Positions 26,640 through 33,201 of a stretch of 52,609 bases of DNA are shown piece after piece (positions within the stretch are counted from its first letter, which is position 1; every line of letters starts with the position of its first letter). The position numbers and the translations under genes were made by a program. The stretch comes from a bacterium (GTDB lineage: Bacteria; Gemmatimonadota; Gemmatimonadetes; Gemmatimonadales; Gemmatimonadaceae). The notes under the pieces are model-generated. The model saw only the letters and a list, made by a program, of their open reading frames with translations, was not told the DNA's origin and did not search any database. The DNA lies in contig JAIXTI010000250.1 in NCBI GenBank assembly GCA_027484025.1, forward strand, positions 1-52,609. The letters are read 5' to 3'.

Positions 26640-27539
26640 GTGTATTCTCCAGTAGTCTCCCCCGTCCCTTCCGGCGTGACAAATACCCCCTCAAACGGCT
26701 CAAATCACGCGCCTCTCCCCTCGCGGCTCCGGAGGGGCGCTTCGACGCAACCCACACTGCTGGCCATCGGCGCGGCCGCCGTACTGGCGGCGTATTCGGC
26801 CGGTTATGTGCGGACGGAAGCGGCGGCCACCGAACTCGCCGCGCGCAGTGCGCCACGTCGACGCGTGCCGGTTGCCGGACCAGACGCGATACCCAACGGG
26901 ACATCGCATGCCGCTGCTGGGGATGCCTCTGTGCCCGTGCCCCCCGTGGCGAGCACTTCGGACCATGCCGTGGTCGCCTCGACCGGAAGTGGGCCACAGC
27001 TCGATCCGAAGGGGGGAGCCGACGCGCCCGCATCTTCGGCACCGCATCAGGTTGTCCCAGATGTTGCGACCACTGATGCAGCCGCCGTCCCTCCGGCGGC
27101 CGCATCAGTGGCACTCGCCGGTGCGCCGAGTGTCACTGGCGCCACCAGTGCGTCCAGCGCGACCATCGCCGTCACGCCGGCGCCGGTACCGGTCGTCGCA
27201 ACGCCACCGGTCGTGACGGCGTCAGCGCCCGCGCCATCCCCGGCGCCGGCCACCGCCGACAGCAGCAAGAAGGTCAAGTGGAAGGACGGGACCTTCACCG
27301 GGTGGGGCACGTCGCGGCACGGCGACATCGAGGCCACCGTCATCATCGAAGGCGGCAAGATCACGGCCGCGGCCATCAGTCGCTGCCTCACGCGGTACTC
27401 GTGCTCGTGGATCGCGCATCTGCAGCCGCAGGTAGCCCAACGCCAGAGCCCGGAAATCGACAACGTGTCCGGCGCGACCGACAGCACCAATGCGTTTTAT
27501 TACGCGATCGTTGAAGCACTCAAGCACGCGGCGCCGTGA
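26640..27539 (+). CDS. Membrane-anchored FMN-binding-domain protein (covalent flavinylation site)
   Basis: Electron carrier of about 299 aa. A hydrophobic anchor (about 38-57) is followed by a ~150-residue Pro/Ala/Ser/Val linker, then an FMN_bind domain (about 218-297) of the NqrC/RnfG type. The motif D-N-V-S-G-A-T (27459-27479) matches the DxxSGAT consensus used by ApbE, which makes Thr280 the predicted FMN-phosphoester site. Two cysteines (in SRCLTRYSCSW) lie in the domain. GTG 26640 has GAGG at 26625-26628. GTG 26676 is an alternative start. The stop overlaps apbE (GTGA), so substrate and modifying enzyme are coupled. Confidence 0.85.
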   Translation: MYSPVVSPVPSGVTNTPSNGSNHAPLPSRLRRGASTQPTLLAIGAAAVLAAYSAGYVRTEAAATELAARSAPRRRVPVAGPDAIPNGTSHAAAGDASVPVPPVASTSDHAVVASTGSGPQLDPKGGADAPASSAPHQVVPDVATTDAAAVPPAAASVALAGAPSVTGATSASSATIAVTPAPVPVVATPPVVTASAPAPSPAPATADSSKKVKWKDGTFTGWGTSRHGDIEATVIIEGGKITAAAISRCLTRYSCSWIAHLQPQVAQRQSPEIDNVSGATDSTNAFYYAIVEALKHAAP

Positions 27540-28465
27540 GCGATCTGCCCACGTACGAGTTTGTCACGACCGCAATGAGTACCACGATCTCGCTGCAGCT
27601 GGTGGGCGAACTGCACGACGCTCCGTCGCGTGCGGCCGACGCATTGGGGTGGTTCGACCTGGTGGAGCGCAGCTGCTCACGTTTTGAAAAGTCGTCGGAG
27701 CTCATGCGCCTGTCTGACACGCGCAATGTGTTCACACCGGTCTCCCCGTTGTTGTTCGAACTCCTGCGCGTGGCGCATTCAATGGCCGACGCCAGCGACG
27801 GGGCCTTCGACCCGGCAGTAGGCGCACGGGTACATGCCCTGGGCTTCAATCGCCCGTGGCGTGGCGGCGCGGCCATTGCCCTCGAGCGACACGACACCGA
27901 CGCCACGTGGCGTGATATCACGCTCGACGAAGCCGCCAGTGCCGTTCGACTCGAACGGCCGCTGCAACTCGATCTTGGCGCCATCGCCAAAGGCTTCGCC
28001 ATCGATCTCGCGGCGCGTGCCCTGGCTGCTGTCGCCCACTGTGCCATCAACGCGGGCGGCGACCTGCTGTACCGCGGACGCAACGCCAAAGGCGCCCCCT
28101 GGCGCACCGCCATCGTGCATCCGCGCGACGAACGGGCGCGACTCGCCACCATGACGTGCGAGGCCGCCGAGTTCGCGGTGTGCACGAGCGGCGATTATGT
28201 GCGGCGAACGGCGCGTGGACATCATCTCGTCGATCCGCGGCAGCGCGAGGCGACATCAGCGTCCCGCTCGCAAAGCGTGACGGTGGTGGCCTCACAAGCA
28301 GCGATCGCCGACGGACTGGCGACGGCGGCCTTTGTGCTGGGGCCGGACGCCGGCGCTGCGCTCCTGCAGGCTCAGGGCGTTGATGGCTGCATCGTGGACG
28401 CCGATGGTGCGGTGCACATGGTGCGTGGATGGGGGTGCACTGAGTGGAGCGTAGGCCATGAGTGA
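27536..28465 (+). CDS. apbE: ApbE family FAD:protein FMN transferase
   Basis: Transfers FMN from FAD to a threonine of target proteins. 309 aa. Family motifs are SRFEKSSELMRLS (48-60), DGAFDPAVG (88-96), LDLGAIAKGFAID (145-157) and NAGGDL (172-177). Unlike the well-studied periplasmic lipoprotein ApbE, no signal peptide or lipobox is visible. The protein starts MSDLPTYEFVTTAM, which is already the conserved first strand, and no upstream in-frame start was found. It overlaps the FMN-binding gene by 4 nt and the RnfD-like gene by 8 nt, so its target is almost certainly the neighbouring SGAT protein. Confidence 0.93.
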   Translation: MSDLPTYEFVTTAMSTTISLQLVGELHDAPSRAADALGWFDLVERSCSRFEKSSELMRLSDTRNVFTPVSPLLFELLRVAHSMADASDGAFDPAVGARVHALGFNRPWRGGAAIALERHDTDATWRDITLDEAASAVRLERPLQLDLGAIAKGFAIDLAARALAAVAHCAINAGGDLLYRGRNAKGAPWRTAIVHPRDERARLATMTCEAAEFAVCTSGDYVRRTARGHHLVDPRQREATSASRSQSVTVVASQAAIADGLATAAFVLGPDAGAALLQAQGVDGCIVDADGAVHMVRGWGCTEWSVGHE

Positions 28466-29342
28466 CGGCACGTTGGCCCCCGCGCGCAGGTCATCGTGGA
28501 CGGCTCTTCCCCGCTGGCTCCGTTCGCCGAAAGGACTGTTCACGGCCATTCTGCTGATCCTGACGGCGCCCGCCGCTCATCATGCAGGATGGATGCTCGT
28601 GCTTCCCGGTCTCGCGAGCGCCATACTCGTCGCCATGCTTCTCGACGCGCCACTGATCCGGTGGCGCGATGGGCAGTGGAGCGTACCCGACGGCGCCTTG
28701 CTTACCGGCGTGCTTGTGGGTGTGGTGCTCAGTCCCCATGCGACATGGTGGGTCGCGGCGGGTACCTCGGCGCTGGCGATTGCCGCCAAGCATGCGCTGC
28801 GCGTGAAGCGTGCCAACGTATTGAACCCCGCCGCGGCAGGGCTGGTCGCCAGCTACTACCTGTTCGACTCGGGACAGAACTGGTGGGGCGCTCTGCCCGA
28901 TCTCGCGCCCGTATGGACGCTCCTGTTGGGATCGACCGCCGCGTTCATGGCGTGGCGTCTCAACAAACTGCCGCTGGTGTTGGCACTCCTTGGCGTGCAC
29001 TTCGTGCTGGCGACGAGTGCCACGTATGTGATCGACCCAGTGCGGCTGGCCGAGCTGTATCGTGCGCCCGATCTGCAGATGGTGCTGTTCTTCGCCGGCT
29101 TCATGGCCACCGACCCGCCGACATCACCGCCCAAGGCCGGCGATCAGGTGACCTACGGCGCTATCGCGGCCGTCGCGGGATTTGGCTTGTACATCGCGAT
29201 CGGTGCCGTCTACTTCCTGTTGGGTGGCCTGCTCGTGGCGAACCTGTGGGAAGGCTGGCGCAAGTGGAAGCGCGCGGGGAGCGCCCGCGCGGCACGCGTC
29301 ACGTCGGCTGCTGCGCCCAGAACCGAAGCAGCGCTTCGTTGA
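28458..29342 (+). CDS. RnfD/NqrB-family membrane electron-transfer subunit
   Basis: Polytopic membrane protein of 294 aa, with about eight to ten TM helices. Family segments are GALLTGVLVGVVLSP (79-93), NVLNPAAAG (120-128), and the C-terminal FFAGFMATDPPTSPPKAGDQVTYG. In Rnf/Nqr this subunit carries electrons across the membrane via flavins. Here the covalent-FMN motif SGAT of RnfD is not visible, so any flavin would be non-covalent (riboflavin or FMN), or electrons pass differently. No rnfA/B/C/E/G or nqr genes accompany it. It overlaps apbE by 8 nt and overlaps the convergent hydrolase gene by 44 nt at its 3' end. Confidence 0.88.
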   Translation: MSDGTLAPARRSSWTALPRWLRSPKGLFTAILLILTAPAAHHAGWMLVLPGLASAILVAMLLDAPLIRWRDGQWSVPDGALLTGVLVGVVLSPHATWWVAAGTSALAIAAKHALRVKRANVLNPAAAGLVASYYLFDSGQNWWGALPDLAPVWTLLLGSTAAFMAWRLNKLPLVLALLGVHFVLATSATYVIDPVRLAELYRAPDLQMVLFFAGFMATDPPTSPPKAGDQVTYGAIAAVAGFGLYIAIGAVYFLLGGLLVANLWEGWRKWKRAGSARAARVTSAAAPRTEAALR

Positions 29343-32053: not shown

Positions 32054-32127
32054 GCACGGTCCCGGGCAGAAGAGTGGGAAAGATCGTACAATACGCCCAA
32101 TCTGCCGTTCACACCAACGTGACCCCG

Positions 32128-33201
32128 ATGCTCCCCGTCAATCTCCGCTCGTACGAAGCGCTCGCGGCCGAACGCCTTCCCCGCATGGTGTACGACTACT
32201 ATGCCGGTGGCGCCAACGACGAAATCCTCCTCCGCGAATCCCGCTCCGCGTGGGATGAGATCCGGGTGCGCTATCGTGTGCTGCGCGACGTCTCGCAGCG
32301 TTCGCTCGCCACGACGGTCGGTGGTCACCAGCTGGACTGGCCCGTCATTGTGGCCCCGATGGCCTTTCAACAGATGGCCACCCCCGAGGGGGAGGTGGCC
32401 ACGGCGCGTGCCAGTGCGGACGCCGGCTCAGGCATGATCCTCTCCACCTTGTCCAACCGCACCATCGAGTCGGTGCGTGCGGCGTCCACCGGGCTGCTCT
32501 GGTTTCAACTTTACGTGTATCGCGACCGTGGAGTGACCGCCGAACTCGTGCGACGCGCCGAGCGTGCCGGTTGCACGGCGCTGGTGTTGACAGTCGACAC
32601 CCCGCTGCTCGGGCGACGGGAGCGTGATGTGCTCAACGGCTTTCATGTGCCGGCGGAATTCGACGCGCCGAACCTGGGTGTGGACATGCGCGGCACCTTG
32701 GCCGGCCAGAACGGTGCGGCCTCCGCGCTCGCACAGTTCATCGCTGAGTACTGGGACGCGGGCATTGCGTGGCGCGACCTCGCGTGGCTCCGCTCGCTCA
32801 CATCGCTCCCCATTTACGTGAAGGGGATCGTCCGCGGTGACGACGCGCTACTCGCCCTCGAACATGGTGCAGCCGGCGTCATCGTCTCCAATCATGGCGG
32901 CCGACAGCTTGACACCGCGCAGCCGACGGCGCGTGCTCTGCCCGAAGTAGCCGACGCTATGGCCGGCCGCGGCGTGCTGCTCGTAGACGGGGGCATTCGT
33001 CGCGGTACCGACGTGCTGAAGGCGCTCGCCATGGGCGCACACGCAGTGCTACTGGGGCGCCCGCTGCTCTGGGGACTCGCGGTGAATGGCGAGGCGGGCG
33101 CGCGGCATGTCCTGCAACTGCTACGCGACGAAGTCGACCTCGCCTTTGCGCTTGCGGGGGTCTGCTCTCCAACCGAAGCAACGCGCGACCTGCTCGCGTA
33201 G
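32128..33201 (+). CDS. FMN-dependent alpha-hydroxy-acid oxidase/dehydrogenase
   Basis: TIM-barrel flavoenzyme (glycolate oxidase / lactate oxidase / LldD family) that oxidises 2-hydroxy acids to 2-keto acids. 357 aa. The catalytic His256 lies in SNHGGRQLD, FMN-contacting Lys232 in YVKGI, the Tyr pair in VYDYYAGGANDE (21-32), and the phosphate-binding part in LVDGGIRRGTDVLKALAMGA. ATG 32128 gives the family-typical N-terminus (PVNLRSYEALA). GTG 32074 is an alternative that adds 18 unconserved residues. Whether it uses O2 or a membrane quinone cannot be told; the membrane-binding insert of LldD is not obvious. Confidence 0.92.
   Translation: MLPVNLRSYEALAAERLPRMVYDYYAGGANDEILLRESRSAWDEIRVRYRVLRDVSQRSLATTVGGHQLDWPVIVAPMAFQQMATPEGEVATARASADAGSGMILSTLSNRTIESVRAASTGLLWFQLYVYRDRGVTAELVRRAERAGCTALVLTVDTPLLGRRERDVLNGFHVPAEFDAPNLGVDMRGTLAGQNGAASALAQFIAEYWDAGIAWRDLAWLRSLTSLPIYVKGIVRGDDALLALEHGAAGVIVSNHGGRQLDTAQPTARALPEVADAMAGRGVLLVDGGIRRGTDVLKALAMGAHAVLLGRPLLWGLAVNGEAGARHVLQLLRDEVDLAFALAGVCSPTEATRDLLA

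Follow-up and report, generated by a model that had tools for sequence, protein, structure and literature searches.

A candidate transmembrane flavin relay encoded with its own ApbE in Gemmatimonadaceae

A cassette of three overlapping plus-strand genes on contig JAIXTI010000250.1, from a bacterium of the Gemmatimonadaceae, encodes a tethered FMN_bind protein, the flavin-attaching enzyme ApbE and a single RnfD-like membrane protein. The DNA analysed (52,609 nucleotides, hereafter the window) comes from a 4.74-Mb assembly (291 contigs; completeness 92.9%) whose closest named relatives are Gemmatimonas/Gemmatimonadaceae assemblies. We lean towards the reading that the cassette specifies a transmembrane electron relay built from two flavin-carrying proteins, along with its own flavin-attaching enzyme, a conduit role that we infer from the features described below (FMN, flavin mononucleotide).

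26640..27539, + strand: gene 1, membrane-tethered FMN_bind (PF04205) protein, predicted flavin acceptor (profile match; start at GTG 26640 or GTG 26676)
26754..26810, + strand: single N-terminal transmembrane helix (TLLAIGAAAVLAAYSAGYV); relatives mostly have GSAAVLxVYxAG[YF] (sequence pattern)
26811..27272, + strand: Ala/Pro/Ser/Thr-rich linker of ~154 residues, modelled as disordered (helix location in relatives and low-confidence model)
27273..27536, + strand: FMN_bind domain (profile match, alignment, model)
27384..27404, + strand: CX5C pair, C249 and C255 (CLTRYSC; the two Cys conserved throughout 21 aligned domains)
27468..27479, + strand: SGAT, predicted flavinylation site at Thr280, or Thr268 if the start is 26676 (motif)
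27536..28465, + strand: gene 2, ApbE FAD:protein FMN transferase (FAD, flavin adenine dinucleotide) without recognisable signal peptide; its GTG start overlaps the gene 1 stop (profile match)
28458..29342, + strand: gene 3, short RnfD/NqrB-like membrane protein (PF03116) with riboflavin-pocket residues kept and with the covalent-FMN segment and PF00175 absent (profile match, alignment)

Gene content and conservation of the cassette

All three genes were assigned by profile: gene 1 scores 22.9 bits against FMN_bind (cut-off 22), gene 2 191 bits against ApbE, FMN transferase activity being predicted from the family, and gene 3 44.1 bits against NQR2_RnfD_RnfE (cut-off 27.7). Genes 1 and 2 overlap by 4 bases (GTGA) and genes 2 and 3 by 8, and DNVSGAT occupies residues 274–280 of the gene 1 protein, numbered from the start at 26640. 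These matches bear out the initial annotation, made from the sequence alone, of three overlapping genes for a tethered FMN_bind protein with an SGAT site, ApbE and an RnfD-like protein.

The gene 1 protein consists of one helix, a long linker and, at its C-terminus, an FMN_bind domain of ~87 residues. In relatives whose membrane helix was located by script, and after removal of five truncated or misread rows, the linker measures 103–187 residues; in the predicted structure it is disordered, at low confidence, in agreement with the flexible linker of ~150 residues annotated at the outset. An alignment of 21 flavin domains shows no variation in SRHG, both CX5C cysteines, RQ or SGAT; in the low-confidence model (predicted local distance difference test score, pLDDT, mostly 50–86 in the domain) a strand ends at the first Cys and a helix begins at the second. 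Foldseek searches ranked the FMN_bind domains 8p2a and 8p2b first for the gene 1 model (E 0.015 and 0.025) and the RnfD chains 8rbq_D and 9eri_D first for the gene 3 model (E 0.0038 and 0.038; template modelling score about 0.3), but neither result was used as proof.

Of 298 genomes surveyed in the phylum, 31 have a strong match to the RnfD-like protein, and there are five weak matches in addition; the 31 comprise 14 genomes of the same genus (window genome included), 15 others of the family and two of another family of the order. The trio is kept in the same order (FMN_bind, ApbE, RnfD-like) in loci of 31 genomes; a single family accounts for 29 of these. G145 has masked bases in the cassette and G274 a broken RnfD-like gene; at the level of loci, L047 is interrupted by N and L067 has a disrupted RnfD-like gene. 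This conservation of order rules out chance or misread open reading frames (ORFs); identity among RnfD-like proteins of trio loci falls to about 46%. The gene 1 domain and the RnfD-like gene are strictly linked across the phylum genomes: a profile of the CX5C FMN_bind domain found 29 strong and two weak genomes of 296, and these 29 are the strong RnfD-like genomes minus G145, in which gene 1 is masked, and G297, which judging by its listing was not in the 296-genome draw. Three genomes of the same genus (G068, G181 and G279) are without the cassette. The whole-genome survey covered Gemmatimonadota; beyond it, a contig scan with six peptide patterns of the RnfD-like protein returned six loci, all from Gemmatimonadota, and a search of 72,556 plasmid records (E ≤ 0.001) returned one record for the RnfD-like protein and one for the FMN_bind domain.

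Further counts refer to 34 loci, among them the window and two near-copies of it, L032 and L037. Left out are L033 and L034, which lie on the contigs of L040 and L039, L073 (a second locus in G297, its protein ending as in L057) and L047, where masking covers gene 1 and part of ApbE; L068–L072 carry no cassette. The 4-base overlap of genes 1 and 2 was found again in 30 of the 34.

The RnfD-like subunit and the NQR/RNF-like class

The gene 3 protein, with PF03116 as the only domain found and a short basic C-terminal tail, aligns weakly with solved RnfD (8ahx, 9eri) and NqrB (9ud3). The legend to Extended Data Fig. 6 in Hau et al. (2023, PMC10643135) names T162, N200, N203, A205, F342 and D346 among the riboflavin contacts of NqrB. 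A hand count along the weak 9ud3_B alignment (E 0.0052) places them at T83, N120, N123, A125, F215 and D219 of gene 3, with no difference at any of the six in 19 of 19 cassette rows and 6 of 6 full-length RnfD rows. The RnfD-like profile behind this comparison, and behind the FG-GAP locus survey described below, was built from an alignment that included the row of L065, an ApbE-frame sequence; the 19 tree rows do not include it. The pocket makes it very improbable that the protein is a solute or flavin transporter and not an electron carrier, since a general transporter would not need these six positions, even though NqrB resembles urea and ammonium transporters in fold, according to a passage in PMC10643135.

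The spacing between A125 and D219 is 93–94 residues in all 19 cassette rows versus 163–165 in all six RnfD rows, whose extra stretch of ~70 residues contains QAT. The motif D..[ST]GA[ST] is present in 0 of 33 usable RnfD-like rows (the 34 minus L065; L035 carries N), so that the annotated lack of a covalent-FMN motif in this subunit is upheld. Its lack of SGAT had also been taken as a sufficient sign that the covalent site is lost, which does not hold: E. coli RsxD has ISQAT, not SGAT, at the corresponding position, which we take to be its covalent FMN site, and absence of SGAT alone is therefore no proof of loss. The absent segment carries the point instead, and judging from the alignment, in which the whole stretch of ~70 residues is missing, the covalent-FMN site of the membrane subunit is lost. 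Cassette, full-length and short RnfD proteins each fall on one side of a supported branch in a tree; the program warned of long branches meeting, and the deep order was not relied on.

Profile searches of the window genome gave one match each for PF03116, PF04205 and PF02424, all within the cassette, which supports it as stand-alone in this assembly, and zero matches for PF02508 (RnfA/E, NqrD/E). An Rnf or Nqr complex hidden elsewhere in the genome was rejected on these grounds, and the annotated absence of other Rnf/Nqr subunits stands for PF03116 and PF02508, RnfB/RnfC not having been searched for. Incompleteness of the assembly is offset by three single-contig cassette relatives, which also have zero PF02508 matches. 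The cassette genome G063, which has a separate Rnf operon, has two.

As defined in passages of Meheust et al. (2021, PMC8238504), NQR/RNF-like systems contain a PF03116–PF00175 protein, with 127 clusters found primarily in Actinobacteria and the candidate phyla radiation; these passages and others in PMC10979944 describe the pairing of an FMN_bind protein with an RnfD/NqrB-like subunit lacking the covalent site. The cassette is alike in its FMN_bind carrier, its ApbE and its NqrB/RnfD-like subunit without covalent FMN site, and in having a Dxx[ST]GA[ST] FMN_bind domain and PF03116 in the same cluster. It differs in that their membrane subunit is fused to cytosolic PF00175, the NAD-binding domain that is part of NqrF, whereas the cassette has none, and in its CX5C flavin domain on a long linker and its occurrence in Gemmatimonadota. 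Zero PF00175 matches were found by profile search in the window genome and in six of the seven cassette relatives searched, two of the six being single-contig; the seventh, G019, has one. Judged by its domains, the cassette lies outside the class as defined, though it shows the other sequence features tested and would work like one. What had been annotated as a specific new form is thus new only in part: a carrier with a covalent-less subunit is an already published class, whereas three things are new with respect to it: the lack of an NAD-binding domain, the CX5C pair of the flavin domain, and an ApbE without signal (see below). The last two were missed by the initial annotation. The cassette was not found described in the open-access literature searched, PMC8238504 and PMC10979944 included and supplementary tables outside the search.

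The same two membrane parts and the same missing covalent site as in the published class could also belong to an NQR/RNF-like system with a separate, unlinked cytosolic NAD(P)H oxidiser and a one-way electron flow that starts at NAD(P)H and ends on an acceptor outside the cytosol, for example ferric iron. We regard this as unlikely, since with the distribution of PF00175 just given the oxidiser would need another fold.

ApbE, membrane topology and the proposed relay

The cassette ApbE starts at or just after the gene 1 stop in the 34 loci, with ~9–32 residues before its M[GDS]T motif, and in the window its reading frame is closed 20 residues upstream of that motif. A signal-type hydrophobicity threshold was passed by only one of 34 cassette ApbEs, marginally (L051, 1.62 versus 1.6), compared to 28 of 28 non-truncated controls; the stretch scored began 5 codons before the gene 1 stop in cassette ApbEs and covered ≤70 residues of open frame in controls, which were the 30 best-scoring other ApbEs of the phylum, two of them truncated. 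By this threshold, the cassette ApbE seems to be without a recognisable signal peptide, clearly in 33 of 34 loci and with one borderline. A criterion of the 2021 survey (in a passage of PMC8238504) was that a flavinylation gene product carry a signal peptide or be lipidated; here, by hydrophobicity and pattern only, gene 1 has its N-terminal helix and ApbE has none. Twin-arginine-like N-termini were seen, by a simple pattern, in 12 of the 30 other ApbEs (L078–L107), and a looser lipobox pattern matched none of the control ApbE rows inspected within that set. Cassette ApbEs carry 2–8 Cys after the motif versus 1.17 on average in controls. The Rnf-linked ApbE of G063 bears a twin-arginine-like signal, which the cassette ApbE of that genome lacks. 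A single ApbE gene is present in 20 of 29 cassette genomes (two G019 pieces counted as one), listed inside the cassette for 13 and recognised there by locus inspection for the other seven, and in the single-contig relatives G019, G039 and G074 the cassette ApbE is the only one.

These ApbE features, together with the overlap with the gene 1 stop in 30 of 34 loci, would all fit an inverted topology, which we entertain tentatively: a cytosolic FMN domain, loaded there by the signal-less ApbE, would on its leash feed the riboflavin of the RnfD-like protein from cytosolic reductants, and that protein would feed quinone or a periplasmic acceptor. Published passages agree with it in that the riboflavin of NqrB lies nearer the cytoplasmic side (PMC10643135) and that, in a review of ApbE (PMC12052999), cytosolic ApbEs exist, localisation matters and Klebsiella has localisation-bound ApbEs. 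The charge around the gene 1 helix points the other way, its mean net value being +2.37 before and +0.07 after the helix in 27 sequences (eight loci excluded beforehand and three without the helix pattern), though K+R counts are similar (2.8 before and 2.3 after in the same 27); this bias weakly favours N-in/C-out, i.e. a periplasmic FMN domain. Nor does a signal-less ApbE prove a cytosolic substrate, because two DUF2271–PepSY–ApbE plasmid operons of Paraburkholderia/Paracoccus (L133, 765–4451; L137, 750–4322) pair an ApbE without signal-like N-terminus with a DUF2271 protein that has one. Were the inverted topology true, the cassette would provide an ApbE-made electron carrier facing inward, whose invariant cysteine pair would couple its flavin to thiol chemistry.

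On the reading that we prefer, a relay with its flavin carrier outside, ApbE would attach FMN to Thr280 of the gene 1 protein, as the motif and family suggest, and the RnfD-like protein, from its conserved pocket residues, would hold non-covalent riboflavin in the membrane like NqrB. The FMN domain, on its leash of ~150 residues, would dock where RnfD's own covalent FMN would sit, exchange electrons with the riboflavin and then swing to a partner on its own side of the membrane; an AlphaFold-multimer model of an NQR/RNF-like pair, in section 8 of Huang et al. (2024, PMC10979944), has the carrier flavin at the RnfD-like flavin site. That the leash-borne FMN would replace RnfD's missing covalent FMN at the riboflavin-holding subunit, a role that Huang et al. 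put forward on modelling grounds for the related NQR/RNF-like pair, is the best-supported reading. The riboflavin would in turn exchange electrons with the quinone pool, the default partner, or with a cytosolic carrier; an NAD(P)H domain of the PF00175 type has no part in this scheme. Electron transfer between the flavin and a thiol partner may run through the invariant CX5C pair. The FMN domain would most likely be periplasmic, in the N-in/C-out orientation weakly indicated by charge, in which case the signal-less ApbE must act before export or be exported by another route.

Several observations weigh against this relay. An ApbE without signal makes an extracytosolic flavin domain not straightforward. 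A seventh riboflavin contact, the backbone of NqrB G198, aligns with R118 and is not kept, and the quinone-site residues of NqrB are not obviously kept either (F159 aligns with A80 and N156 with P77), so that quinone as partner is a guess. Segment loss is not special to the cassette, because short FG-GAP-associated RnfD relatives are also without the ~70-residue stretch. Both structure models are poor (mean pLDDT 57.1 and 48.4, from 6–7 alignment rows each). Finally, in a neighbour survey of 40 loci, made with a rough gene caller that showed no genes for some of them, no nearby co-conserved redox gene was found; neighbours outside the trio vary between loci, and the commonest, M20 peptidases (13 of 40) and PF00144 hydrolases (8 of 40), are not redox genes.

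Related systems, neighbouring genes and significance

Like Rnf and Na+-NQR, the cassette has an RnfD/NqrB homologue with riboflavin-pocket residues and a predicted covalent-FMN carrier comparable to RnfG/NqrC; unlike them, its genome is without PF02508 and its membrane subunit without the covalent-FMN segment. The DUF2271–PepSY–ApbE operons resemble it in combining a membrane electron subunit, a small flavin acceptor and a signal-less ApbE in one operon, but use other acceptor and membrane protein families.

Short RnfD-like proteins associated with FG-GAP genes share with gene 3 a short PF03116 without FMN segment but form their own branch (99/96 support) and have His at the position of N120 and Ser/Thr at that of A125 in 15 of 15 (HxxNP[ST], compared with NxxNPA in the cassette). 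They resemble 'UnbU/UnbV'; gene 3 as an UnbU-like protein was ruled out by its pocket residues and the tree. No ORF with D..[ST]GA[ST] was found beside them in 12 fetched loci of 6–10 kb, and no FG-GAP match among 11 flanking proteins of the window. Such short proteins with HxxNP[ST] occur in other Gemmatimonadota, with FG-GAP-like ORFs in 10 of the 12 loci L113–L124 and, by eye, also in L068, L070 and L071, of which L068 adjoins a large polyketide-synthase-like ORF (likewise by eye). On a Metabacillus plasmid (L074, 5159–6546), a short RnfD-like gene is immediately preceded by one for a membrane-anchored redoxin-domain protein; the pair may be a thiol-based equivalent of the flavin cassette.

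In the window, the cassette is flanked on its 5' side by a divergent gene for a TonB-dependent receptor and on its 3' side by a convergent alpha/beta hydrolase gene. An FMN-dependent alpha-hydroxy acid dehydrogenase gene (PF01070, 427 bits) lies at 32074–33201, 2.7 kb downstream of the cassette, and 6 of the 40 loci have a relative in the vicinity of the trio.

Altogether, the cassette would be among the smallest Rnf/Nqr-derived units able to carry electrons across a membrane, and would be easy to express and test. With the two DUF2271–PepSY operons, it makes testable how signal-less ApbEs flavinylate substrates thought to be extracytosolic.

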